From Lacrimispora xylanolytica (GTDB lineage: Bacteria; Bacillota; Clostridia; Lachnospirales; Lachnospiraceae), in assembly GCF_026723765.1 (NCBI RefSeq), contig NZ_CP113524.1, positions 4,241,501 to 4,305,500 on the forward strand: 64,000 nucleotides of DNA, read 5' to 3'. A program made the position numbers and the translations under genes. The notes under the pieces are model-generated. The model did not search any database. It saw only the letters and a program-made list of their open reading frames with translations, and was not told where the DNA came from. The first letter of the stretch is position 1. Every line of letters begins with the position of its first letter. Below, piece by piece: positions 52,996 through 64,000 of the stretch.

Positions 52996-53089
52996 ATGAA
53001 CCCCCTAAATATATGTGTTACAGTTTATGTATTTCACTTCCCTATTTCCGGTCATATACAGTCCGGCTGTTATGAATACCTCCCATCAT

Positions 53090-53431
53090 TTATATAGATG
53101 TATACTCAAGTACCTCATCATGCTTCATAAAAAGCTGGGTATGTTTTGTCAATTCCTCATATCCCTTATTTTTCAAGCACCATTTCATAGCCGTCAACAC
53201 AAGTGCGGCATATAAATTTGACAAATAATCTAATATCTCTGGTGATTTCTTATTCTTTAACTTCTGGCTCTCATAAAAACTCTTCTGTAAAAAGTCCGAC
53301 ATGTCTTCATATAAATGAATGGTGTCGGTATGAATGGTAATTTTATGAAAGTCCTTTTCCATTAACAAGGACAGAAAAACGCTTTCGATATTTTTTCTTG
53401 TCTTTCTGACACGCAAGTCATTCTGATTCAT
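53090..53431 (-). pseudogene. TetR-family regulator with internal deletion of the recognition helix
   Basis: A 113-residue frame. The first 31 residues (NQNDLRVRKTRKNIESVFLS and EKDFHKIT) are the start of a TetR DNA-binding domain. The sequence then jumps in frame to TIHLYEDMSDFLQKSFYES, a C-terminal regulatory-domain sequence, skipping the HTH turn and recognition helix (usually NRSTFYxHF). Full TetR proteins are about 180-200 residues. It keeps a good start site (GGGAGTGG), so it may still be made, but it should not bind DNA specifically. Divergent from the HXXEE gene, which the intact ancestor probably controlled. Confidence 0.7.
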
Positions 53432-53585
53432 TTTTCCACTCCCTATGATTATTTTAAAACTTCTCAAGCAGATAAGCAACACTATATCTGTTTTAGTAGC
53501 TTATATTAATAAGCAATAAATTTCTGAAGATTGAAATGTTTCACCTAATGTTATAAACTAAAAATTAAAAAGGAGAGATGTAATT

Positions 53586-54098
53586 ATGAATGAACTTAAA
53601 TGGTTTGCCTGGCTTTTTCCATTATTATTTATTGTACATGACATGGAGGAGATTATTACAGCAAAGAGCTGGTGCAACAAAGGATTGAAGCCAATTATTC
53701 CTCTGCCCTCCACCCCTTTTGGTAATACCAAAAGTACAGCGGGCTTTGCAGTTGCAGTCTTTGAAGAATTGATTTTATGGATTCTTGCCACTCTCCTGGG
53801 AAATATCACTGGTTTTTATGGATTATGGTACGGGTTCCTCGTTGCCAATATCATACACATGATCCTGTTTCACATGATTATTTTTCCTCTATCCTATCGC
53901 CGATATGTCCCTGGTATAATCACCGCATGGCTAACGCTGATTCCATTCTGCTATATCTTTTACCTGGCTCAAAAAGTTTTGAATTATTCCGTTATTCAAA
54001 TTGGGCTCTGGGTGACAATCGGATTTTTATTGGCATTTGGTAATGTGAAACTACTGCATAATAAAATGAACCTGCTTTCTAAACTGACAGGAGAATGA
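53586..54098 (+). CDS. HXXEE-domain membrane protein
   Basis: A 170-residue membrane protein with about five hydrophobic helices and the motif HDMEE in LFIVHDMEEIITAKSW, which defines the HXXEE family, plus a conserved HMILFHMIIFP histidine stretch. The histidines and acids suggest a membrane-embedded metal site. Function unknown. Strong AAAGGAG site. Divergent from the damaged TetR gene. Confidence 0.82.
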   Translation: MNELKWFAWLFPLLFIVHDMEEIITAKSWCNKGLKPIIPLPSTPFGNTKSTAGFAVAVFEELILWILATLLGNITGFYGLWYGFLVANIIHMILFHMIIFPLSYRRYVPGIITAWLTLIPFCYIFYLAQKVLNYSVIQIGLWVTIGFLLAFGNVKLLHNKMNLLSKLTGE

Positions 54099-54260
54099 GA
54101 GCTTGATCATTAACATTTGGAACACATGAATGGTTAGTTGATTTATGTTATTAAGATAATATTCTAACTTATGGTAATTATTTTAGAAGTGGAGGTGAAT
54201 TACATTATATATGAATAACCATAATATGCAAAATACTGTACAATATCATGGAGGTTAGAT

Positions 54261-54359
54261 ATGAAATCTATAGTTAAAAGAGTGACCTCTGTATTACTCA
54301 TGTTTACAATTATGGCTACATCAACACTCATCTCATACGCACAGGATTATAAGAATTAA
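54261..54359 (+). CDS. 32-residue peptide: signal sequence with five-residue tail
   Basis: ATG 54261 lies seven bases after GGAGG and encodes 32 residues: basic KSIVKR, a hydrophobic core VLLMFTIMATSTLI, and SYA before QDYKN. If signal peptidase cuts after SYA, the released product is QDYKN. The stop TAA overlaps the ATG of the next gene (TAATG), so the two are coupled. It could be a small secreted signal, or the surviving 5' end of a longer secreted-protein gene. Confidence 0.55.
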   Translation: MKSIVKRVTSVLLMFTIMATSTLISYAQDYKN

Positions 54360-54556
54360 TGAAAAATTTAATAAATAAAATCATTGCAAATTTAGGTTAT
54401 ATAATAATTATTTGCGGCATGTTAATAGCTGAAAAAATCTCTACACAGGCAACATGGGCAAATATTATTAAAGATAATTTTTGGAGAATTATATTTATAT
54501 TAATTGTAATTGTAGTTTCAGAATTAATTGTAAAATATATTAAGGAGAATAAGTAA
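54359..54556 (+). CDS. Small membrane protein, two helices
   Basis: A 65-residue protein with two hydrophobic segments (IIANLGYIIIICGMLIAEKI and FWRIIFILIVIVVSELIVKY) and a basic end. Starts within the stop of the 32-residue peptide gene and depends on it for a ribosome site. Family not recognised. A hairpin terminator follows at 54637. Confidence 0.6.
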   Translation: MKNLINKIIANLGYIIIICGMLIAEKISTQATWANIIKDNFWRIIFILIVIVVSELIVKYIKENK

Positions 54557-54871
54557 ATTAGCATTATATGTAAAGGGGTAAACTGTTCCCATCACAGATC
54601 CACTCTTACAAATGTTGATACATCTTAATCGTAATCGGGCTGAAGGCTTCAAAGGAAAGCCTTCAGCCCTTTCTTATGATGAGAGGGGTAATACAGATTG
54701 ATATGATGGCTCCACTCCTTTTTAATGGGATTGAGTCAACAAGACAATTGCTCTTCAATTTTTCCATTTCTGCCTATTGCTCTTTATTATATATAGTATT
54801 AGCATCTAAATGGGACAGAAAACTATAGGATAATAAAATATTGATATTACACCTCTAAACCAAGTTCATAC
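54557..54871. other. Intergenic region with terminator
   Basis: About 315 AT-rich bases. They hold one rho-independent terminator (54637-54669) and no ORF I can support; this is also the left border of the peptide cluster. Confidence 0.6.
54637..54669 (+). terminator. Terminator after the small-peptide genes
   Basis: A perfect 13-bp stem GGGCTGAAGGCTT with its complement, then TTTCTTA. Similar in sequence and flanks to the terminator at 50976. Confidence 0.75.
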
Positions 54872-56023
54872 TTATAATAGAAAAGGATATAGCTCTAAAA
54901 ATAATTCCTCTATATTTTCGTACTTATCTGTATTAATATATTTGATTCCTTTTCCGCCTATAATTCTTTTATGTTCAAATTTATCAATAATAACATCAAA
55001 ATCTATAAGTTTTAACTTAGATAAGGTTCTCTTGTTATTTACATGTAATATAATAAAATCAGCATTGCAATAATGGCTATAAAAGCGTATCTTCTGAACC
55101 AAGCGATACGAATTGAAATCCAATAAATTTATTATCTTCTTCTCAATGTCTGTGTTAAAGCTATCACTTAAGCAAAACCCAATATAACCATTTTTTTCAA
55201 ATTCAGATAGCAATATTATTGTTGAATCTGTATCAATATTATTTAATATAGCAATAATTGGCACAGTTACTTTTGCTTTAAAATACTCTCTATAGAAATT
55301 TTTATACCAATCATATTTAGGTTTTATTGATGCTTTTTTTAAAGTAAATTCAATGTCGCGCATCGAGCTTGTACCGTTATTCAGGAGGTTACAGACCTTA
55401 GCAGTTATTATTGGAGCTACGAGGCTGTTTGAACTAGGTAGAGTATAATACTTCCCCCTATATTTTATAATTTCATCCGATAAATAGTAACTGATATCTA
55501 TACCATCCAAACAATTCCCATTATATATATAACCACGGCAACCAGACTTAACTCTAAGGGATCTAACTCCAATCACTTCTTTAAAGCAAGCAGGAAAAGT
55601 CATCTTTTTTCTATTTGAAGTTGCGCAAACCACTACTACACCCATACGTGTTAACTTTTTAACAATTTTATATAGTGGTGGTACATCAGTCAACGAAGTT
55701 GTCCCAATGCTTAAATTTACAATATTTATACTATTTCGCAAACACCACTCTAAAGATATTAATAAATGACTAATATTAGCTTTTTTATTACCATCTTCCA
55801 AGATTTGTACAAAAGAAATATCACAATATTCTGTACAGTTATCAATGAACATTTTAGCACACATAGTTGCATGAGTAATATCTCTCACGGTTTTATCTCT
55901 CGACTGAATTACCATATCATTTTTTATTATATAAACACCACTAATATTCTGTTTCTTTGATATAAACTGATTTATATAATCTAAATTAATTTTAGTATCT
56001 ATAAAAGCTATCCTTTGTATCAT
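54872..56023 (-). CDS. Subtilisin-like (S8) serine protease of the peptide cluster
   Basis: A 383-residue protein. The triad can be placed: D9 in IAFIDTKI, H51 in DITHATMCA, S200 in SNSLVAPI, with oxyanion N137 in CATSN. It lacks signal peptide and prodomain, so it acts inside the cell. After about residue 220 there is a ~160-residue C-terminal domain I do not recognise. The motifs are divergent from exported subtilisins (HAT for HGT; NSLVAP for TSMAAP). ATG 56021-56023 follows AAGGAA; the upstream frame to 56095 adds residues outside the fold. As the last gene of the cluster it is the best candidate for removing the leader peptide, since the exporter has no C39 protease domain (inference). 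Confidence 0.82.
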   Translation of the reverse strand: MIQRIAFIDTKINLDYINQFISKKQNISGVYIIKNDMVIQSRDKTVRDITHATMCAKMFIDNCTEYCDISFVQILEDGNKKANISHLLISLEWCLRNSINIVNLSIGTTSLTDVPPLYKIVKKLTRMGVVVVCATSNRKKMTFPACFKEVIGVRSLRVKSGCRGYIYNGNCLDGIDISYYLSDEIIKYRGKYYTLPSSNSLVAPIITAKVCNLLNNGTSSMRDIEFTLKKASIKPKYDWYKNFYREYFKAKVTVPIIAILNNIDTDSTIILLSEFEKNGYIGFCLSDSFNTDIEKKIINLLDFNSYRLVQKIRFYSHYCNADFIILHVNNKRTLSKLKLIDFDVIIDKFEHKRIIGGKGIKYINTDKYENIEELFLELYPFLL

Positions 56024-56069
56024 AGTAAATTCCTTCCTCCTTAACAAGGAAACATTGTTATAAATAGTA

Positions 56070-56111
56070 ATGCGATGAAATAAATCATAAAACAAATCTA
56101 TTTCACCGCAT
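56070..56111 (-). terminator. Hairpin between precursor and protease genes
   Basis: A 13-bp stem, ATGCGGTGAAATA with TATTTCATCGCAT. It is fully paired only in minus-strand RNA, where the one mismatch becomes G-U. There is no clean T-run, so it may be a partial terminator or a 3' stabiliser that keeps precursor mRNA abundant. Confidence 0.55.
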
Positions 56112-56190
56112 CATTCAGAATATATTATTTATACTTAGGATTATAATATATCTATTATGTTGTAAAAGTTATATGTACTTATATAATAAA

Positions 56191-56385
56191 TTATCCTCTT
56201 AAAATTACCGACGGACCAGAAGCTCCTGATGCTGAGGTTGAGGAATTACTACTATTATTTCCATTAGAGTTTATAAATAAAAAGCAAGAACAACTACAAC
56301 TGCCGCAAGTGCAACCTCCACAACTGCAAGAATAAGCCTCAACACTATTTTCTATAATGGAATTACTTTTTCTTAATTTACGCAT
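56191..56385 (-). CDS. Cys-rich RiPP precursor peptide (Clo7bot-like)
   Basis: A 64-residue peptide. The leader is basic then acidic (MRKLRKSNSIIENSVEAY). The core begins SCSCGGCTCGSCSCSC, with seven cysteines at 20, 22, 25, 27, 30, 32 and 34. A hydrophobic FLFI follows, then an Asn/Ser/Gly-rich tail ending PSVILRG. Seven cysteines after a VEAYSC junction fit the clostridial Clo7bot/CLI_3235-type precursors as I recall them. ATG 56383-56385 lies seven bases after GGAGG; the longer frame from 56409 has no such site. The maturase next door would crosslink cysteines to neighbouring residues. Tail Ser and Gly residues could be partners or a carrier segment (inference). Confidence 0.85.
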   Translation of the reverse strand: MRKLRKSNSIIENSVEAYSCSCGGCTCGSCSCSCFLFINSNGNNSSNSSTSASGASGPSVILRG

Positions 56386-56469
56386 ATTTTCCCTCCTTTC
56401 TACGCACATAATTCCACCAACTCATATACCTAAGTCTAATTGAATGGTGAAAATACATTATGTGTATAC

Positions 56470-56766
56470 TCAACAAAATGATATAATATCATTGTTGGCA
56501 GCTGAATCAGATATATGATTCATAATTGAATCAACAACGTTATTAAAACTATAATTTGTAAATAAATCAAAAAGGCTATCATTAATATCAAAGTCAAACT
56601 TCTTACTCGCATTTAATAGTATATATACAAACAATTCAGAAGATATATTATATTTTTCATTAAACAGACAATCATCAAATTTATCAATACTGACACCAGA
56701 TACGTCGTTTATAATCGATTTCAACTCATTTTGAACGTCACTACGTTTTAAATTATTGTTAACCAT
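56470..56766 (-). CDS. Acyl-carrier-like protein of the peptide cluster
   Basis: A 98-residue acidic, helical protein with the length and helix pattern of an acyl carrier protein (VQNELKSIINDVSGVSID; FVYILLNASKKFDFDINDSL; SFNNVVDSIMNHI). The standard DSL phosphopantetheine site is not present at the start of helix 2; the nearest equivalent is NISSELF, whose serines might or might not be modified. It matches the acyl carrier-related family described beside clostridial Cys-rich peptides. ATG 56764-56766 follows GGAGG at eight bases. Lies between the unknown protein (21 bases) and the precursor. Confidence 0.7.
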   Translation of the reverse strand: MVNNNLKRSDVQNELKSIINDVSGVSIDKFDDCLFNEKYNISSELFVYILLNASKKFDFDINDSLFDLFTNYSFNNVVDSIMNHISDSAANNDIISFC

Positions 56767-56787
56767 AATATTTACCTCCATCAACGT

Positions 56788-57864
56788 CTATAATTGCGCT
56801 GGATTTGCCTGTAATTCATTTTCTATTTTTTGAAATACTCTGTTAATGTCATCATCACTAAAGGATGAAAAAACAGTATACTGATCACTTATAGTATCGA
56901 ATGCTAATTGAGATTTAACAAACTCTGTAGTTATATATAAGTATTCAAGCTTATCAGGATCATCAACGTCTTTTAATACACTGGTGTTTGAAACTCCAAA
57001 ATATCTTGCATCTACATCTAATCTATATTTACAAAATAGTCTAACTTCCTCTAGAAATTCATCATTATAATCACCAAAATGCATATTAACAATTCCTATA
57101 TCGCTTTTTATTGAGCTTTGTATTATAAAAGGATTTATACCTAAACCATTTAGATTACTATCATTGTATTTCATAATAGGATTTGGCACTCCAAGCAAGA
57201 TAATATCAGGCTTTTCCACTAAACAATGCTTATGTATAAACCGATTAAATCCTATCGCCTTAAGAAACGGATCTACTTTAGCATTGAACATAAAATCAGG
57301 TATATCGAGACAACCTATATTATTCATGAAATCATGTGATCCTATTTGTAAGACTCGATATCCCTTACTTAAAAAATACTTTCTAGCCATAAACTCAGTT
57401 TGCAATTGACCACATTTCTCACCAATTGAAAATATTGAGATAATAGGTACCTCTATTGTTAACATTTTATGGGGAGTTGGAATATCTGTTAAAACTTCAT
57501 TGCTATCTCCTAAGCCCACGTATTGAGTACTTAATTCGAAATGCTTCGATATATCTTCAGAAACTATAACCTCTTTTCCTAACTCTTTAGAAAAATCAAA
57601 GAGTTTCTTATATAGTTTATTATTTATAAATTCCTCACTACTTGTAAGATAGAGCAGATCACTTTCTTGTATCTTTTCCTCATAATTTATAAATAATTTT
57701 ATATTAGCAAACGAGCCTCCGTCTAACCTGGAAATATCGCAGCCTTCCAATACGTTAAGTTCTGGCGCTAATAATGCTATTGGTTCATATTCACCCATGA
57801 ATGCATACCTTACTAGAGTTGCATTATCGTAATCGACTGGGAAAATTGCTATCTTTTTATACAT
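56788..57864 (-). CDS. Peptide maturation system protein of unknown function (TIGR04066-like)
   Basis: A 358-residue cytoplasmic protein. It begins with a sugar- or nucleotide-fold-like strand (YKKIAIFPVDYDNATLVRYAFMGEYEP). A central SIFSIGEKCGQLQTEFMARKYF stretch recalls nucleotide-binding loops but lacks a P-loop lysine. Later KPDIILLGVPNPIMKY and IGIVNMHFGDYNDEFLEEV look like a second alpha/beta half. From memory this matches the uncharacterised family found only with this maturase and acyl-carrier-like protein. ATG 57862-57864 follows GGAGG at nine bases and overlaps the maturase stop by eight bases. Confidence 0.7.
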   Translation of the reverse strand: MYKKIAIFPVDYDNATLVRYAFMGEYEPIALLAPELNVLEGCDISRLDGGSFANIKLFINYEEKIQESDLLYLTSSEEFINNKLYKKLFDFSKELGKEVIVSEDISKHFELSTQYVGLGDSNEVLTDIPTPHKMLTIEVPIISIFSIGEKCGQLQTEFMARKYFLSKGYRVLQIGSHDFMNNIGCLDIPDFMFNAKVDPFLKAIGFNRFIHKHCLVEKPDIILLGVPNPIMKYNDSNLNGLGINPFIIQSSIKSDIGIVNMHFGDYNDEFLEEVRLFCKYRLDVDARYFGVSNTSVLKDVDDPDKLEYLYITTEFVKSQLAFDTISDQYTVFSSFSDDDINRVFQKIENELQANPAQL

Positions 57865-59275
57865 TATAAAGCTCCTCCATTTTATCAAAATCAACATTAT
57901 TCTCTTTTAGCAGGCATATAGTTTTTAATTTTTCTATCGTATCATACATAGCGCTTTCGCAACGAGCAAGCTTCATACCTTCCACAAGCTCTTTTGTATT
58001 ATCTGCAGATGCTGCGCACATACCACAATAAATAAAATTCCAACAATTCTTACATTTATCAGCTGTTACTTTTCCCGGATTAAGTACAACTCTAGCCTTT
58101 TCGAGATCATATCCCGAGTAGATATTGCCGATTTTCATTATTTCTGATTCTTCGCTAACCCTTTCACAAGGAAAGATATTACCATCTACATCTATCATCG
58201 GGCGTCTGGCCCCAGGTATACAAGGTCCACCTGGATGTGTTATTCTAGCTAAACCATTAATTCCGCTCAGTTCTTTATGCATACGTAGTATTTTGGGTAT
58301 TTCATGAATGAACAATCTGGAAACTTTATTTTTATTTATTAGACCAAGAGCAGATAAAAGTAGCTTAGTACGTTGAACCTTATAATTTATGGAATATAAA
58401 TCATCATATTGTATAGGTTCTTCTACATAGAAGTCATTCATAATCCCCATCCTCAGATTATTATCTTGAATGATATCATTTGCATCAAAAAAATCGTTTA
58501 CGCACCTAAAATCTGTACCAGGAGCTACAACTGTGTTAAAACTGATTTTTCTAAAAAAGTCGGGATACTTATCTCTAATATATAAAAGATTCTCCATTAT
58601 TTTATCAAAGGATCCAGTACCATTAGCAAAAACTCTATTATGATCATGCAACTCCTTGGGACCATCCAGACTTATAATAACATCAAACTTTTTATCCATT
58701 AAAAACTCTATATTATCATCATTAAACATAGTGCCATTTGTTGTCATAGAATACGTTATACTTTTATATGGATACCTTTCGTCTATGTAACCCATTAACC
58801 TTTTAATCTTATTGAACTCTAACAAAGGTTCTCCACCATAAAAACCAATATCAACCTTTTTCGAGTTAGTTGAATGCTTCATTAAGAAATCAATACTTTT
58901 TTGCATGATTTCATAGGACATTACCCTATTTGAATGTGTCCGATTATTATATTTATTACCAGAATAAGCGCAGTAAGAACACCGCAAATTACAATTTTGA
59001 GTGAGTTGCAATGTAAGCTTTTCAATCTTGTTCTCAAGATGAAATTGCATAAACCTGTCCTGAGGATGTTCTATTTGTTCGACCGGATTTTCTTGGCAAT
59101 ATCCTTTTTCCTGAAAGAGTTGAAGTAGCTCAAGATCCTTCGCATCCGGCCTTTTCTGATGAATTCTACAAAATGAATTATACTCATCATCATCTACAGC
59201 CAAGATTGAATTTGTTCCCCTGTCATAAATATACTTTCCAAAAGCAGTAAAGAAAGGTTTAATAACAACATTCAT
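57857..59275 (-). CDS. Radical SAM/SPASM Cys-rich peptide maturase (CcpM-like)
   Basis: A 472-residue enzyme. Residues 1-80 resemble the PqqD-like recognition domain of RiPP enzymes (GKYIYDRGTNSILAVDDDEYN). The radical SAM cluster is C95, C99, C102 in QNCNLRCSYCAYSG, with GFYGGEPLLEF after it. The C-terminal SPASM domain has GPCIPGARRPMIDVDGNIFPCERV and CKNCWNFIYCGMCAAS plus a final Cys in LARC, enough for two more iron-sulphur clusters. Such enzymes form thioether crosslinks on cysteine in sactipeptides and ranthipeptides, which is the likely job on the seven-Cys precursor. Its ATG overlaps the exporter stop by one base. Confidence 0.9.
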   Translation of the reverse strand: MNVVIKPFFTAFGKYIYDRGTNSILAVDDDEYNSFCRIHQKRPDAKDLELLQLFQEKGYCQENPVEQIEHPQDRFMQFHLENKIEKLTLQLTQNCNLRCSYCAYSGNKYNNRTHSNRVMSYEIMQKSIDFLMKHSTNSKKVDIGFYGGEPLLEFNKIKRLMGYIDERYPYKSITYSMTTNGTMFNDDNIEFLMDKKFDVIISLDGPKELHDHNRVFANGTGSFDKIMENLLYIRDKYPDFFRKISFNTVVAPGTDFRCVNDFFDANDIIQDNNLRMGIMNDFYVEEPIQYDDLYSINYKVQRTKLLLSALGLINKNKVSRLFIHEIPKILRMHKELSGINGLARITHPGGPCIPGARRPMIDVDGNIFPCERVSEESEIMKIGNIYSGYDLEKARVVLNPGKVTADKCKNCWNFIYCGMCAASADNTKELVEGMKLARCESAMYDTIEKLKTICLLKENNVDFDKMEELYNV

Positions 59276-60999
59276 CAGTTTTCATCCCCCTGTGTTAGAA
59301 TTTTATATAAATCACTATTTTTAGTCACAAGTTCTTCAAAAGTTCCAGTGTCAGTAATCATGCCATTATCAATTACAAAAATCTTATCAAGTCTTCTCAA
59401 TATATCTTCCCGATGGCTAATTACAATAACAATATCATACAAGTCTTGCTGTATAATAAATTGATTAAATTTTCGTTCTGCCACTATATCAAAGTTGGCA
59501 GTTGCCTCATCTAAAACCAAAATATTTCCACACTTTGCTAAAGTTCTAGCTAAAGCTACCTTTTGCCTTTCACCTCCAGATAATTTCGATCCATTAAATC
59601 CTACCAGGCTATCTATACCCTCAGGCAACGAATCAATAAACTCAACTGCTGTTGTTAGCTCTATGTAATGTCGAATTTCATCATCCGATAGATTACCTAT
59701 TATATTTATGTTGTTCCTTATACTTTCATCAAAGAGACTAATATTTTGATTCATAATGCTAAATAAGTTTCGATAATCACCTAGTGCTAATTTGCGAATA
59801 TCAACTCCATTTATTTTAATTGTTCCAGATACTGGCTCATAAAAACGTAGCATTAAGTTAATGATGGAGGTTTTACCTGAACCATTAACCCCAATAAAGC
59901 CTACTTTCTCACCTTGATGAATAGTAAAATTTATTAAGCGTAATACAGCATCTTTGTTACCATAGGCAAATGAAACATTATCAAATGATAAACTCTTCAC
60001 TTCGTTATAGCTATTATCCATACAAATACCACACTCATCTTCTACCTCATTTTCAAAATACTCCATAAACCTCTTAAACGATGGAATAGAGCTTTGTAAT
60101 CTATAAGCTAAATTAGATAGAAGAGATATGGGCTGTAAAACATACATGGAATAAGATATGAATGCGAACAATCCTCCTATAGTGAGTTGATCTCGAAAAA
60201 TTAGTATTGCACCCAATAAATTCAAACCGTGAGTAAATATCATGCCAAGTGTTTGGCTTGATATATTTGAATAATTATCCAAATACTCCATTTTTGTTTC
60301 TAAGTTCATCATTTTCATTTTAGAGGATTTAAACTCACTCATTCTCATATCCTGAAGGTTCCAAAGCTTAATAACCTCAATATTTTTAAAAATTTCTCCA
60401 AACCAGATAGAAAAACTCTCATTTAACTTCATTAAAGTCGCAAAATAATTACTTCTTATTGATGAGATATAGTTTTTTATAAGTAACTCAAGAGGCATAA
60501 TGGCCAATATAAAAATAGTTAATCTCCAATCAATAAGGCTAAGACCAATTATACCGCCAATTATTTTAAAAAAACTAACTACAGTTTGAAGTAGACCACT
60601 ATTTATTATTTGAGTAATATTTGAAATATCACTATAGACATTGCCTATAGTTTTTAAAAAATTATTATCTTTGTGATAAGCCATCTTTAATCTAATTGAG
60701 TGACGTATAGCATCATACATCAAGTTAAACGATATCTGCCTATTCACAAACTGGTAATGAACGAATTGAACAAATGTTAGTATTTGCTCTATTATAAAAA
60801 GGGAAAATATATACAATGTATAACGTAAAACTACATTTAAGTCACCTTCAGCGATTCCTTTATCAAATAACTCCTTTTGTATCATTGGGTACATTACCCC
60901 TAATACGGAAACAACAATCATACAAAAAATTATAATTATGATTCTTATTTTAAATGGACCAAATTGCTTAAAGATAAATTTAATAACATCTTTATTCAT
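59275..60999 (-). CDS. ABC exporter (membrane and ATPase domains fused) of the peptide cluster
   Basis: A 574-residue half-transporter: six membrane helices (about residues 15-300, starting IRIIIIIFCMIVVSVLGVM), then an ATPase with Walker A GVNGSGKTS, signature SKLSGGERQKV, Walker B NILVLDEATANFD and H-loop ISHRED. It would act as a homodimer to export the matured peptide. There is no N-terminal C39 peptidase domain, so leader removal needs another enzyme such as the S8 protease. First gene of the cluster; ATG 60999 follows AGGGGAGAAGT. Confidence 0.9.
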   Translation of the reverse strand: MNKDVIKFIFKQFGPFKIRIIIIIFCMIVVSVLGVMYPMIQKELFDKGIAEGDLNVVLRYTLYIFSLFIIEQILTFVQFVHYQFVNRQISFNLMYDAIRHSIRLKMAYHKDNNFLKTIGNVYSDISNITQIINSGLLQTVVSFFKIIGGIIGLSLIDWRLTIFILAIMPLELLIKNYISSIRSNYFATLMKLNESFSIWFGEIFKNIEVIKLWNLQDMRMSEFKSSKMKMMNLETKMEYLDNYSNISSQTLGMIFTHGLNLLGAILIFRDQLTIGGLFAFISYSMYVLQPISLLSNLAYRLQSSIPSFKRFMEYFENEVEDECGICMDNSYNEVKSLSFDNVSFAYGNKDAVLRLINFTIHQGEKVGFIGVNGSGKTSIINLMLRFYEPVSGTIKINGVDIRKLALGDYRNLFSIMNQNISLFDESIRNNINIIGNLSDDEIRHYIELTTAVEFIDSLPEGIDSLVGFNGSKLSGGERQKVALARTLAKCGNILVLDEATANFDIVAERKFNQFIIQQDLYDIVIVISHREDILRRLDKIFVIDNGMITDTGTFEELVTKNSDLYKILTQGDEN

Positions 61000-61502
61000 A
61001 CTTCTCCCCTATCAGCTAAATATTCAGCTTTAGCTATTCTTAAAAGTAAAAATATATAATATGCTATTACAAATTCTACATGTTATCATAGAGTAATGCT
61101 TATATAAACATACACTTTTACGTTAATTATAAAAATTATTATGCTTAAGGAAATAAACGATATTTTCAACTTTTCAGTTTAATAATCTAGAAAGTATTAA
61201 AATACAGAGCAAGTGAGAAAGATTAGTTGTTTTGATTTGTATTAGTAGTTAGATCCCATTACTTTTATAGATTTAAAGTTCTATTAATTAGCATTATATA
61301 ACATATTTCACAAATTTTCTAGCATAATTTGAAAATACTACATTTTTAAAATCATAAGTATAACTATATATTTAATTATACAAATATACTAAACTATTAG
61401 TGCTATAATTGATAAACTTTACTGCAAGGATGTAACTACATTGTACAAATATGTTCTTGCCAAATAAAATGCTTATTCCAGAGTCATTATTTAATTCAAA
61501 TA
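61000..61502. other. Long AT-rich region upstream of the peptide cluster
   Basis: About 500 very AT-rich bases with no supportable ORF. It must hold the promoter of the leftward cluster; several TATAAT-like boxes exist but none has a clear -35. A small dyad AGCTAAA/TTTAGCT at about 61017-61038 lies in the likely 5' leader of the exporter gene. Confidence 0.6.
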
Positions 61503-61534
61503 AAAAAGACTCCACACGTTCATGTGAAGTCTTC
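61503..61534 (-). terminator. Terminator of the rpsF-ssb-rpsR operon
   Basis: AAGACTTCAC...GTGGAGTCTT hairpin followed by TTTTTT on the minus strand, 32 bases past the rpsR stop. Confidence 0.85.
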
Positions 61535-61565
61535 CTCAATAAGCCAACCCTTATAAAATAAGGAT

Positions 61566-61832
61566 TTACTCCATTGTATAAGGCATAAGAGCGATGTGTC
61601 TAGCTCTCTTAATAGCAACGGTAAGTGCTCTCTGGTGCTTAGCACAGTTGCCTGTGATACGTCTAGGAAGGATTTTTCCTCTCTCAGATACATATCTTTT
61701 TAATTTATTTGCGTCTTTAAAATCAATTACGCCGTTCTTCTCGCCACAGAATACGCAAACTTTTTTTCTTCTACGCATTCCGCCTCTTTTGAACTTAGCG
61801 CCATCAGCTTTATCATTTCTGTTGAATGCCAT
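61566..61832 (-). CDS. rpsR: Ribosomal protein S18
   Basis: An 88-residue S18 with the conserved [51 protein letters not shown] core (given here only as start VIDFKD and end ALMPY). The N-terminus carries an [12 protein letters not shown] zinc-type Cys pair. Last gene of the rpsF-ssb-rpsR operon; good GGAGG site. Confidence 0.97.
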
Positions 61833-61853
61833 TGGTACTACCTCCTATCAGAT

Positions 61854-62303
61854 TTAGTTGAATGGAAGTCCTTCGTCTTCGACTCCATCCGGGATATTCA
61901 TAAATCCATCGCCGATTGCACTGGAAGGAGTTGGTCTGGAAGTTGGCTGGTATCCGCCTTCTCCTGATGCTCCGCCTTTGCTGTCTGCGAATTCCTGATC
62001 TTCTACAACGATATCTGTTGTATAAACCTTTACGCCGTCTTTATTCGTATAACTTCCAGTCTGGATCCTTCCGGAAACCAATACTCTCATACCCTGACGG
62101 AAATACTTCTCTGCAAACTCTCCTGCCTTGTCAAACGCAACACAGTTGATAAAATCAGCAGTCTGTTCATTGCCATCCTGATTTCTGCGGCCTCTGCGGT
62201 CAACAGCAAGGCTGTACCTTGCGATTGCCATGGAGCGCTCACCTTGGGAATATCTTACTTCTGGATCACGGGTCAATCTGCCCATAAGGATTACTTTGTT
62301 CAT
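61854..62303 (-). CDS. ssb: Single-stranded DNA-binding protein
   Basis: A 149-residue SSB: OB fold starting MNKVILMGRLTRDPEVRYSQ, RRGRRNQDGNEQTADFINC, GRIQTGSYTNKDG, a Gly/Pro/Ser-rich linker and the acidic interaction tip ending GLPFN. Between rpsF and rpsR, the usual Firmicute order. Confidence 0.96.
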   Translation of the reverse strand: MNKVILMGRLTRDPEVRYSQGERSMAIARYSLAVDRRGRRNQDGNEQTADFINCVAFDKAGEFAEKYFRQGMRVLVSGRIQTGSYTNKDGVKVYTTDIVVEDQEFADSKGGASGEGGYQPTSRPTPSSAIGDGFMNIPDGVEDEGLPFN

Positions 62304-62325
62304 ACGATCACGCTTTCTTTATCTA

Positions 62326-62613
62326 TTATGCCTCTTGTCTTACGCATAAGTATCTGATAACCGGCTCCATAATACGAATGTGTGCTTCTAACTCATTCGG
62401 TGTTGTGGAATCGCCATCAAATTTGATGAAGTAGTAGAATCCCTCTTTCATCTTCTGAATTTCGTAAGCTAATCTCTTCTTACCCCATTCATCAATGTTG
62501 GTTACAGCGCCGCCGAAACGAGTAATATAACCCGTAACTTTTTCGATAGCTGCTGCTCTCTCTTCATCTTCGAGCTTTGCGTTAATAACAACGGCTAACT
62601 CATATTTGTTCAT
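62326..62613 (-). CDS. rpsF: Ribosomal protein S6
   Basis: A 95-residue S6: MNKYELAVVINAKLEDEERA, GYITRFGGAVTNIDEWGKKR, LAYEIQKMKEGFYYFIKFD. ATG 62611-62613 follows GGAGG; the longer frame to 62664 runs into the leader. First gene of the operon. Confidence 0.96.
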   Translation of the reverse strand: MNKYELAVVINAKLEDEERAAAIEKVTGYITRFGGAVTNIDEWGKKRLAYEIQKMKEGFYYFIKFDGDSTTPNELEAHIRIMEPVIRYLCVRQEA

Positions 62614-62618
62614 GCTTG

Positions 62619-62662
62619 TTACCTCCTTGTGGTCTCTGGCCCCTGCTTTCAGTATCAGGAGC
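62619..62662 (-). promoter_or_regulatory. Leader hairpin pairing the rpsF ribosome-binding site
   Basis: In minus-strand RNA, CCTTG pairs with CAAGG, which includes the start of the AAGGAGG ribosome site. Nested inside is GCTCCTG/CAGGGGC (seven pairs, one G-U). This would limit rpsF translation, as for S6:S18 feedback leaders, though I do not see the CCG element I recall for that motif. Confidence 0.5.
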
Positions 62663-62688
62663 AAGGATTCTCTATGTCACGAGTTAAC

Positions 62689-62717
62689 ATTATACAGGAA
62701 ATATTCTACAAAAGCAA
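62689..62717 (-). promoter_or_regulatory. Promoter of the rpsF-ssb-rpsR operon
   Basis: Minus-strand TTGCTT (62712-62717), 17 bases, perfect TATAAT (62689-62694), giving a leader of about 70 bases. Confidence 0.8.
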
Positions 62718-62764
62718 GTCCTTTTCTTAATTTTAAAGGCTTTTTCCCGCATAAATTGGGGTTT

Positions 62765-62962
62765 TTACTGCTTTGGATTGCCGTCACTGGCTTTTAAGCC
62801 TCTGGTATTCTTTTCCACCAGCTTTCTGGGCACCATAATCATATGTCCACAGCCCATACATTTTAAGCGGAAATCCGCTCCAACTCTTAAGATTTCCCAC
62901 TCCTGACTGCCGCAGGGATGCTGTTTTTTCAGTTTTACAATATCTCCAATTTCATAATTCAT
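62765..62962 (-). CDS. DUF951-family small protein
   Basis: A 65-residue protein: GDIVKLKKQHPCGSQEWEILRVGADFRLKC is preceded by MNYEI and followed by MGCGHMIMVPRKLVEK. The cysteines (PCG, KCMGCGH) suggest a small zinc-binding fold. It is commonly found just before rpsF in Firmicutes. Start ATG 62960-62962 after AGGTG; the frame to 63067 overlaps the reductase gene and is rejected. Function unknown. Confidence 0.85.
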   Translation of the reverse strand: MNYEIGDIVKLKKQHPCGSQEWEILRVGADFRLKCMGCGHMIMVPRKLVEKNTRGLKASDGNPKQ

Positions 62963-63003
62963 AAAAACACCTGCCTGCCCGTTTGGGCCGCCCTTATATC
63001 CAA

Positions 63004-63996
63004 TTATTTTAAAATATTGTCGATGCGCTTTAATTCTTCCTTGGAAAATTCCGTATTTTTCAGACAAGCTACGTTATCCTTTAACTGTGCCACGCTGCTG
63101 GCTCCAATGAGGACTGAAGTCACCGCCTCTTCCCTCAATACCCAGGCAAGTGCCATCTGGGCAAGACTCTGACCTCTTTCCTTTGCCAAATCATTTAACT
63201 GTCTTATAACAGAAAGATTTTCCTCTGATAGGTATCGACCGCCTATGGTGCTTCCTTTTCTGGCTGCCCGGGATCCGCTTGGAACGCCGTTTAGATATCG
63301 GTCTGTAAGAGCACCCTGTGCCAGTGGACTATAGCAGATACAGCCTGTTCCGCTCTCTAAGAGGGTATCAAATAGACCTTCCTCTGCCACTCTCTCAAAC
63401 ATGTTATACCGTGGCTGATGGATGAGGCAGGAGATTCCCATGCCTTTTAAGACCTTAATGGCCTCCTTAGCTTCCTTGCTGCCGTAATTGGAAATACCCA
63501 CATAAAGTGCCTTCCCCTGTCTGACGATGTCAGCAAGAGCGCCCATGGTCTCTTCTATCGGTGTTTCCGGGTCTGGTCTGTGGTGATAGAAGATATCTAC
63601 GTAATCAAGCCCCATACGCTTTAAGCTCTGGTCAAGGCTAGCCATTAAATACTTTCTGGAGCCAAAGTTACCATAGGGTCCGGGCCACATGTCAAATCCT
63701 GCTTTTGTGGAAATGAGCATTTCATCCCGGTATCTGCCAAGATCACTCTTTAATACACTGCCAAAGGTTTCTTCCGCCATACCAAAGTAAGGAGCTCCGT
63801 AGTTATTTGCCAGGTCAAAATGAGTAATACCCATATCAAATGCACTTAAAAGAATGTCTCTCTGGGTGGTGGGCGCCTTCTCCATTCCGAAGTTCTGCCA
63901 CAGCCCTAAAGAAACTCTGGGAAGCATGATTCCACTTTTCCCGCACCGCTTGTATTCCATTGTTTCGTATCTGTTCTTTGCCGCCTCGTACATCAT
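63004..63996 (-). CDS. Aldo/keto reductase (YghZ/L-glyceraldehyde 3-phosphate reductase-like)
   Basis: A 330-residue AKR of the potassium-channel-beta/YghZ branch: GITHFDLANNYG (catalytic D and Y), LISTKAG (K), YVDIFYHHRPDPETPIEET (H), YVGISNYG, and NADPH-binding IGASSVAQLKDNV near the end. The frame is still open at the window edge, so the ATG at 63996 or 63993 is probable but a start just outside cannot be excluded. Confidence 0.88.
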   Translation of the reverse strand: MMYEAAKNRYETMEYKRCGKSGIMLPRVSLGLWQNFGMEKAPTTQRDILLSAFDMGITHFDLANNYGAPYFGMAEETFGSVLKSDLGRYRDEMLISTKAGFDMWPGPYGNFGSRKYLMASLDQSLKRMGLDYVDIFYHHRPDPETPIEETMGALADIVRQGKALYVGISNYGSKEAKEAIKVLKGMGISCLIHQPRYNMFERVAEEGLFDTLLESGTGCICYSPLAQGALTDRYLNGVPSGSRAARKGSTIGGRYLSEENLSVIRQLNDLAKERGQSLAQMALAWVLREEAVTSVLIGASSVAQLKDNVACLKNTEFSKEELKRIDNILK

Positions 63997-64000
63997 AGTT

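Follow-up and report, generated by a model that had tools for sequence, protein, structure and literature searches.

Among the closest described relatives of the locus reported here is the SacP23 cluster of Paenibacillus polymyxa, which has the same gene set and, when carried by Bacillus subtilis, is active against several Gram-positive bacteria (PMC10731318). In that report the peptide has an m/z of 3404 at unit resolution, is blocked to Edman degradation, as its authors report for other sactipeptides also, and has an unsolved structure; 23SacE (TIGR04066) was proposed to confer immunity and 23SacF, an acyl carrier protein (ACP)-like protein, to modify the precursor. A five-gene cluster of Roseburia intestinalis L1-82 likewise combines TIGR04068, TIGR04066, TIGR04069, a subtilase and an ABC transporter, but its authors found no obvious structural gene (PMC4573289). 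Here we describe an operon of this kind in a 64,000-nucleotide stretch of Lacrimispora xylanolytica (contig NZ_CP113524.1, positions 4,241,501 to 4,305,500; hereafter the window), where six genes, all on the minus strand, span positions 54872-60999 by open reading frame (ORF) calls. We argue, with moderate confidence, that this CcpM-type operon for a ribosomally synthesized and post-translationally modified peptide (RiPP) encodes a non-catalytic pair, TIGR04066 and an ACP-like protein, serving its maturase. Both accessory families have hitherto been unexplained, or guessed at (immunity, modification), in the literature examined.

Gene content and linkage of the operon

The operon belongs with near certainty to the CLI_3235/CcpM peptide maturation system, in line with an earlier note, written from the sequence alone, that had assigned it to the clostridial Cys-rich peptide systems. 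The CcpM radical S-adenosylmethionine (SAM)/SPASM maturase (472 residues; 57857-59275) scores 563 bits against TIGR04068 (NCBIfam cut-off 500), the 64-residue precursor encoded close by (56191-56385) scores 33.4 bits against TIGR04065 (cut-off 26), and the TIGR04066 protein (358 residues; 56788-57864), at 201.4 bits, barely exceeds its cut-off of 200. Two further models named in that note fared differently: the ACP-like protein (98 residues; 56470-56766) reached 15.0 bits against a TIGR04069 cut-off of 70, which the L063 (36.9) and L200 (63.3) proteins also missed, and TIGR04333 was not among the matches. The roles it gave to exporter, SPASM maturase, precursor and intracellular subtilase are upheld by homology, and the precursor does contain seven Cys.

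The first gene encodes an ABC exporter (574 residues; 59275-60999) with membrane (PF00664, 104.1 bits) and ATPase (PF00005, 94 bits) domains and no peptidase domain among its Pfam matches. In the maturase, the CxxxCxxC motif and the C-terminal Cys are invariant across 16 aligned sequences. The precursor has a leader ending in SVEAY, then a Cys-rich core and a Ser/Asn-rich tail. A leader pattern yielded 43 candidate precursors, the window's among them, of which two or more (L067, L141) are likely false. In most, the leader closes with hydrophobic-x-A-Y/F and gives way at once to a Cys-rich core with 3-8 Cys; the pattern itself demanded such an ending and at least three Cys, so this likeness is a description and not a test.

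To count neighbours we took 54 CcpM genes scoring at least 480 bits, a line that leaves out L073, L074, L079, L137 and L149, after dropping two duplicate contigs, L154 (a copy of L057) and L156 (of L068), and, among the ACP-like matches, L159:110-439 (of L132); 52 of these genes had 2.5 kb of downstream sequence, the contig-end loci L059 and L065 standing outside the counts. A TIGR04066 gene lies directly behind CcpM in all 52 loci and an ACP-like gene within 3.5 kb in 50 of them, the misses being L141 and the second L051 set (nearest 4 kb off). A TIGR04066 match was what brought many loci (L128-L159) into the collection, which biases them to contain that gene; free of this bias are a maturase-fetched set, where the corresponding counts are 27/27 and 26/27, and a class-wide survey of 291 genomes, in which TIGR04066 passed in all 11 genomes with a strong TIGR04068 match. 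In G034, the twelfth TIGR04066 genome of the survey, the maturase is divided between two frames. S8 protease genes, by comparison, lie within 9.5 kb of CcpM in 29/52 loci (20/37 with wide flanks), and in three genomes (G136, G201, G242) the best S8 gene sits away from their 3-4 CcpM loci, in G242 on another contig. These counts suggest that TIGR04066 and the ACP-like protein are dedicated partners of the maturase, and that the protease can be shared. At one locus below the score line, L074:8992-13133 (Blautia massiliensis), a CcpM-like maturase occupies two reading frames and S8 is present, with TIGR04066 not detected; this cluster is perhaps decaying.

Constant company of the maturase, the small size of an ACP-type protein and the shared leader endings would also suit a different role, in which the ACP-like protein is a stand-alone leader binder and TIGR04066 its scaffold. 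PqqD-like and B1 proteins are leader-binding partners of this sort. However, the CcpM profile aligns to PDB 5wgg over residues 4-249 and 346-424, and CcpM shares with the maturase of 5wgg/5why, which we take to be the SCIFF/ranthipeptide maturase CteB, both the SPASM architecture and an N-terminal region, presumably the leader-binding RRE domain. A separate binder is therefore not obviously needed, and we consider this role improbable. A non-catalytic pair acting alongside the maturase remains our preferred reading, and the ancestry of its two members is taken up below.

TIGR04066, the DUF1611 fold and the leader protease

The window TIGR04066 protein has no Pfam match over the gathering score, PF07755 (DUF1611) included, and searching PDB sequences with TIGR04066 brought up nothing convincing; its relation to DUF1611 emerged from a fold search and from fusion proteins. 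An AlphaFold 2 (AF2) model built from 28 sequences (mean predicted local distance difference test, pLDDT, 86.9; predicted template-modelling score, pTM, 0.88) retrieved with Foldseek, as its top seven chains, the DUF1611 proteins 2g0t (two chains) and 2obn (four), then DgcN (7xrj), an N-acetyltransferase, at rank 7, all sharing its overall fold with template-modelling (TM) scores by query of 0.46-0.60. For 2g0t and 2obn, E-values ran from 2.9e-9 to 4.2e-7 at probability 1.00, with root-mean-square deviations of 5.7-7.1. A published link between TIGR04066 and DUF1611 was not found in the openly available literature searched, where the sole match for DUF1611 together with radical SAM enzymes was a phage paper.

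What distinguishes TIGR04066 from 2g0t is the nucleotide loop, which reads GTDCVVGKRT in 2g0t and GTSSxQGK[FL]T in three S8-DUF1611 fusions described below (L104, L151, L152), whereas the window protein has GEKCGQLQ, with the Lys lost. Across 55 TIGR04066 proteins (57 minus two duplicates), the five commonest places hold G (46), E (44), K (48), F (44) and Q (44), Asn is the commonest residue before the Lys (23/55), and GK with a Ser or Thr at the next position or the one after it occurs in none; in L149 a Thr stands next to the Lys position and the Lys itself is absent. Fusions of the lachnocin type carry NK in the loop, as many TIGR04066 proteins do. For the family, a DUF1611/DgcN fold with a degenerate GK-x-T loop is well supported.

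The second line of kinship runs to the intracellular S8 leader protease (383 residues; 54872-56023), which matches PF00082 at 22.5 bits (cut-off 21.8) and falls below the QhpE model NF049966 (60.1 against 165 bits). Its Asp-His-Ser triad is found in 40/40 aligned S8 proteins, a set that includes the window protein and three duplicate records. Queried with the whole AF2 model (pLDDT 80.4, pTM 0.71), Foldseek returned among its best 50 rows subtilisin-type proteases, including the maturation protease PagA (4h6w). Beyond the catalytic part, at about residues 250-383 (modelled at about 256-382), lies an alpha/beta domain whose predicted strands and helices appear by eye to alternate much as in the second domain of TIGR04066. 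Profile comparison with hhalign aligned the C-termini of 27 S8 proteins to 57 TIGR04066 proteins at 96.8% probability (E 2e-10); the value was 99.8% for seven fused C-termini, 97.7% for a long-tailed S8 set and 93.8% for six short-tailed proteins, the window's among them. The catalytic domains from those 27 S8 proteins reached 1.1%, and reversed controls stayed at 0.1-0.4%. At the level of the families, these profile alignments support well the homology of TIGR04066 to the C-terminal domain of S8 leader proteases.

Nature has also joined the two in single chains. Seven S8-TIGR04066 fusions were found (L010, L075, L076, L151, L152, L157, L158), with L104 an eighth of this type from its Pfam matches. 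The L104, L152 and L151 fusions pass PF07755 (cut-off 25), with scores of 43.4, 37.5 and 33.9 bits across the three, and L104 matches 2g0t with E 1.2e-7; among the four fusions scanned, that of L010 had no PF07755 match. A further search of 398 genomes for S8-DUF1611 fusions gave, among the matches listed, mostly the protease part of ordinary subtilases. Separately, at L130:11213-17902 a 2,229-residue open frame matching the S8 profile adjoins a CcpM set and is the S8 gene of that locus in the neighbour counts.

This kinship bears on the proposal made for 23SacE and 23SacF, that TIGR04066 protects the producing cell from its own peptide while the precursor is modified by the ACP-like protein. 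A sensitive B. subtilis base strain survives once it carries the whole SacP23 cluster, which speaks for an immunity function, but the exporter could account for that survival, and no transmembrane helix was predicted for 23SacE (PMC10731318). Since a DUF1611 fold and homology to a protease domain fit maturation machinery, we regard an immunity role as highly improbable. The protein that the earlier note had called unknown thus gains a fold and, through intermediates, a relative within its own operon, both compatible with our preferred reading of a maturase partner, while its degenerate loop speaks against the acyl role suggested there.

The carrier-related protein and acyl chemistry

The earlier note had taken the carrier protein and its neighbour as signs that the peptide is modified a second time, by an acyl- or aminoacyl-based reaction. 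PF00550 is absent from the Pfam matches of the window ACP-like protein, but a profile made from 53 relatives, with this protein left out, finds it with E 5.6e-9, along with two of the three ACPs of the window genome (9.1e-5 and 0.0013; the third is not listed). Compared with a profile of eight ordinary ACPs, the family reaches 96.9%. We read the phosphopantetheine position from an alignment with the three ACPs, with which hmmalign agrees bar one gap. After three duplicates were dropped, 59 matches carry there P (24), A (15), S (8), V (3), I (3), G (2) and T, M, E or L (one each). Five of the eight Ser proteins are ordinary-looking carriers that do not stand behind TIGR04066 (L131:14963, L063:7495, L152, L104, L151); that of L131, a second ACP beside a 1,054-residue ORF beyond transposase-like genes, looks unrelated. 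Ser occupies the position in 3/54 ACP-like proteins (window, L048, L057), none of the 54 has a D-S-hydrophobic motif, and the three with Ser lack both the preceding Asp and a large hydrophobic residue after it; the window context, NIS[S]ELF, lies outside the DSL motif of functional carriers. By these alignments, the ACP-like proteins are homologues of ACPs in which the phosphopantetheine Ser has mostly been lost. With Ser absent in 51/54 and GK-x-T in 0/55, a second acyl- or aminoacyl-based modification is not supported as a trait of the family.

Single clusters may differ. L063:6044-15419, from a Lachnospiraceae metagenome-assembled genome, encodes an AMP-binding enzyme (PF00501, 139 bits), a true ACP (PF00550, 21.7 bits; cut-off 20.8) and a second, ligase-like protein of the DVU_1553 type (71.5 bits, below the cut-off of 300), the genes running in line before CcpM and the last overlapping it; further on, the cluster keeps a separate Ser-less ACP-like protein beside the true one. 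Because carrier and ligases stand in line with the maturase, L063 is possibly an acyl- or aryl-decorated variant. L133 and L134 likewise have AMP-binding enzymes (PF00501, 207 and 213 bits), 1.4 and 4.3 kb ahead of CcpM, with the precursor between. In three sister clusters (L104:8596-15772, L151:5552-13341, L152:5910-14462), radical SAM enzymes of other kinds stand with an S8-DUF1611 fusion, a DSL carrier and two ABC exporters; two small Cys-containing ORFs before the L104 maturase may be precursors. A carrier reaction is plausible in clusters of this sister type, with radical SAM enzyme, fusion, true ACP and two exporters.

These clusters are among the grounds for supposing that TIGR04066 is instead an active DgcN-like acyltransferase, which, once the leader is gone, would cap the new N-terminus with an acyl group supplied by the ACP-like protein or by CoA. 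The rank of DgcN in the fold search, the S8-DUF1611 fusions beside DSL carriers, the adenylating enzymes at L063, L133 and L134, and the blocked N-terminus of SacP23 (PMC10731318) all suit it. The loss of Ser and of GK-x-T across the families runs counter to it, as does the rarity of the enzymes: a search with the AMP-binding enzyme of L063 turned up relatives at three CcpM loci only (L063, L133, L134), and in line with a true ACP at L063 alone. The SacP23 mass favours neither side. The 61-residue Sacti5 sequence (PMC7343975, Table 1) reproduces the SacP23 core mass and pI (4455.8, 7.73), from which the two would appear to be one peptide; m/z 3404 is matched within 1 Da by several of its subpeptides, with and without acyl groups. 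That peptide was not found among 100 genomes of the genus of G369, 12 of which have related maturases and some related precursors; G369 itself, with SacP23-like core genes (L200), has Pro at the carrier position (SPRDLL). As the earlier note had supposed, no solved product structure of a CcpM-type peptide was found in the literature, SacP23 being known by its unit-resolution mass. Weighing these points, we think an active acyltransferase unlikely.

Acyl chemistry in single clusters, as opposed to the family, keeps some support: the window Ser stands at the right place, DgcN is an enzyme of the same fold, and L063 pairs an ACP with two adenylate-forming enzymes. A tentative history, to which we give little weight, runs as follows: in sister clusters the S8-DUF1611 fusion would cut the leader and cap the new N-terminus with an acyl group from a true carrier, CcpM systems would have inherited both partners as a non-enzymatic maturation complex, and some, such as L063, would have regained a carrier and ligases.

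Proposed maturation, genomic setting and known systems

The observed gene content, homologies, motif loss and linkage are best explained, in our judgement, as follows. The leader, which in most relatives ends in hydrophobic-E/Q-A-Y/F, would bind CcpM, and CcpM would join core Cys to other residues through thioethers, as its family suggests. TIGR04066 and the ACP-like protein, which go back to a P-loop domain and to an acyl carrier but have lost the residues that mark them, would act as a non-catalytic pair of the maturase that holds or hands over the precursor during modification. The S8 protease, with its C-terminal domain homologous to TIGR04066, would then cut off the leader close to EAY and may dock where TIGR04066 does, and the ABC protein would export the product, probably a bacteriocin.

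Several observations weigh against this scheme. The loop Lys persists in 48/55 TIGR04066 proteins, two of them (L068, L073) have GK, and the L064 loop has a Thr two places after the Lys, which leaves room for ligand binding in many relatives. The TM-scores to DUF1611 proteins are moderate (0.54-0.60 by query), and an N-acetyltransferase is among the proteins of that fold. The window protease alone aligns to TIGR04066 at 0.9% and to long-tailed S8 C-termini at 55.5%, and its own relation to TIGR04066, by sequence, rests on intermediates. Ser stands at the critical place in the ACP-like proteins of both the window and L048, which group with L059 in the maturase tree at a modest support of 0.64 (L057 falls elsewhere, and at L059 no ACP-like gene was seen before the contig end); this small lineage may therefore keep a functional Ser. 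The Edman block of SacP23 fits N-acylation (PMC10731318), and the binding of TIGR04066 and the ACP-like protein to each other or to the precursor is something we infer. In place of a vague second acyl modification, the scheme poses sharper questions: whether the maturase needs the pair, and whether its two members bind the precursor or each other.

The gene order is exporter, maturase, TIGR04066, ACP-like protein, precursor and, past a hairpin, protease. Six leftward genes are present, as first noted, and the overlapping or very short junctions described with them hold for three of five (-1, -8 and 21 nt), but not for the remaining 84 and 167 nt. Judged by eye, ribosome-binding sites favour starts shorter than the longest ORFs for four genes, at ATG 56023 (protease), 56385 (precursor), 56766 (ACP-like protein) and 57864 (TIGR04066). 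Within the 167-nt gap, a 19-bp hairpin (56068-56113, minus strand; -22.7 kcal/mol, z -7.12, 0/200 shuffles as stable), also flagged by a scan for terminator-like structures, is possibly an attenuator or an mRNA-stabilising element; Rfam gave no match reaching the gathering score in window positions 53000-64000.

The operon is a strain-variable, AT-rich segment beside rpsR (54097-61545, without strand), its adjoining genes reading as rpsR, ssb and rpsF. Between 54001 and 62000, four 2-kb bins have a GC content of 0.29-0.33; the remaining 28 bins of the window range from 0.365 to 0.465. Its variability is evident in G243, a genome of the same species, where flanks 98.5% and 99.8% identical enclose about 5.8 kb of different DNA (L199:1797-7563) that, by reading of its ORFs, bears an IS200-like transposase; the single strong TIGR04068 match of G243 is the counterpart of a second CcpM copy in the window genome. 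In G291, of the same genus, the alignment covers the rpsR side alone within the stretch compared. A terminator-like hairpin (61501-61538, minus strand; -20 kcal/mol, z -5.08) lies behind rpsR.

The window genome holds three related clusters: the window operon, the second CcpM cluster and a lachnocin cluster. The second (L009:5330-13192, from G000:C1:3120000-3137000) has genes for a precursor with four Cys, maturase, TIGR04066, ACP-like protein and exporter, with no S8 gene within the 17 kb covered; immediately upstream of it stands what reads by eye as an agr-type set (histidine kinase, response regulator, AgrB- and AgrD-like genes), so that the cluster is perhaps under peptide quorum sensing. 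The third (L010:4608-10605) matches lachnocin models for precursor (NF038169, 99.2 bits) and maturase (NF038170, 838.5 bits). The lachnocin system shares with the window operon a Cys-rich precursor, a related maturase, an exporter and an S8 protease, but at L010 the protease and a TIGR04066-like domain form one 560-residue protein and no ACP-like gene was detected.

Compared with the SacP23 cluster, the window operon has the same CLI_3235-family precursor with seven Cys, TIGR04068, TIGR04066, TIGR04069, subtilase and ABC exporter, but the SacP23 cluster has in addition 23sacB (sigma-like) and 23sacG, a different core and a product shown to be bioactive. The gene set is thus already in print for Roseburia intestinalis and Paenibacillus polymyxa, and the operon is ordinary in kind; what is new here is the placement of TIGR04066 as DUF1611-like and as a homologue of a protease domain, beside a carrier family in which the Ser is mostly lost.

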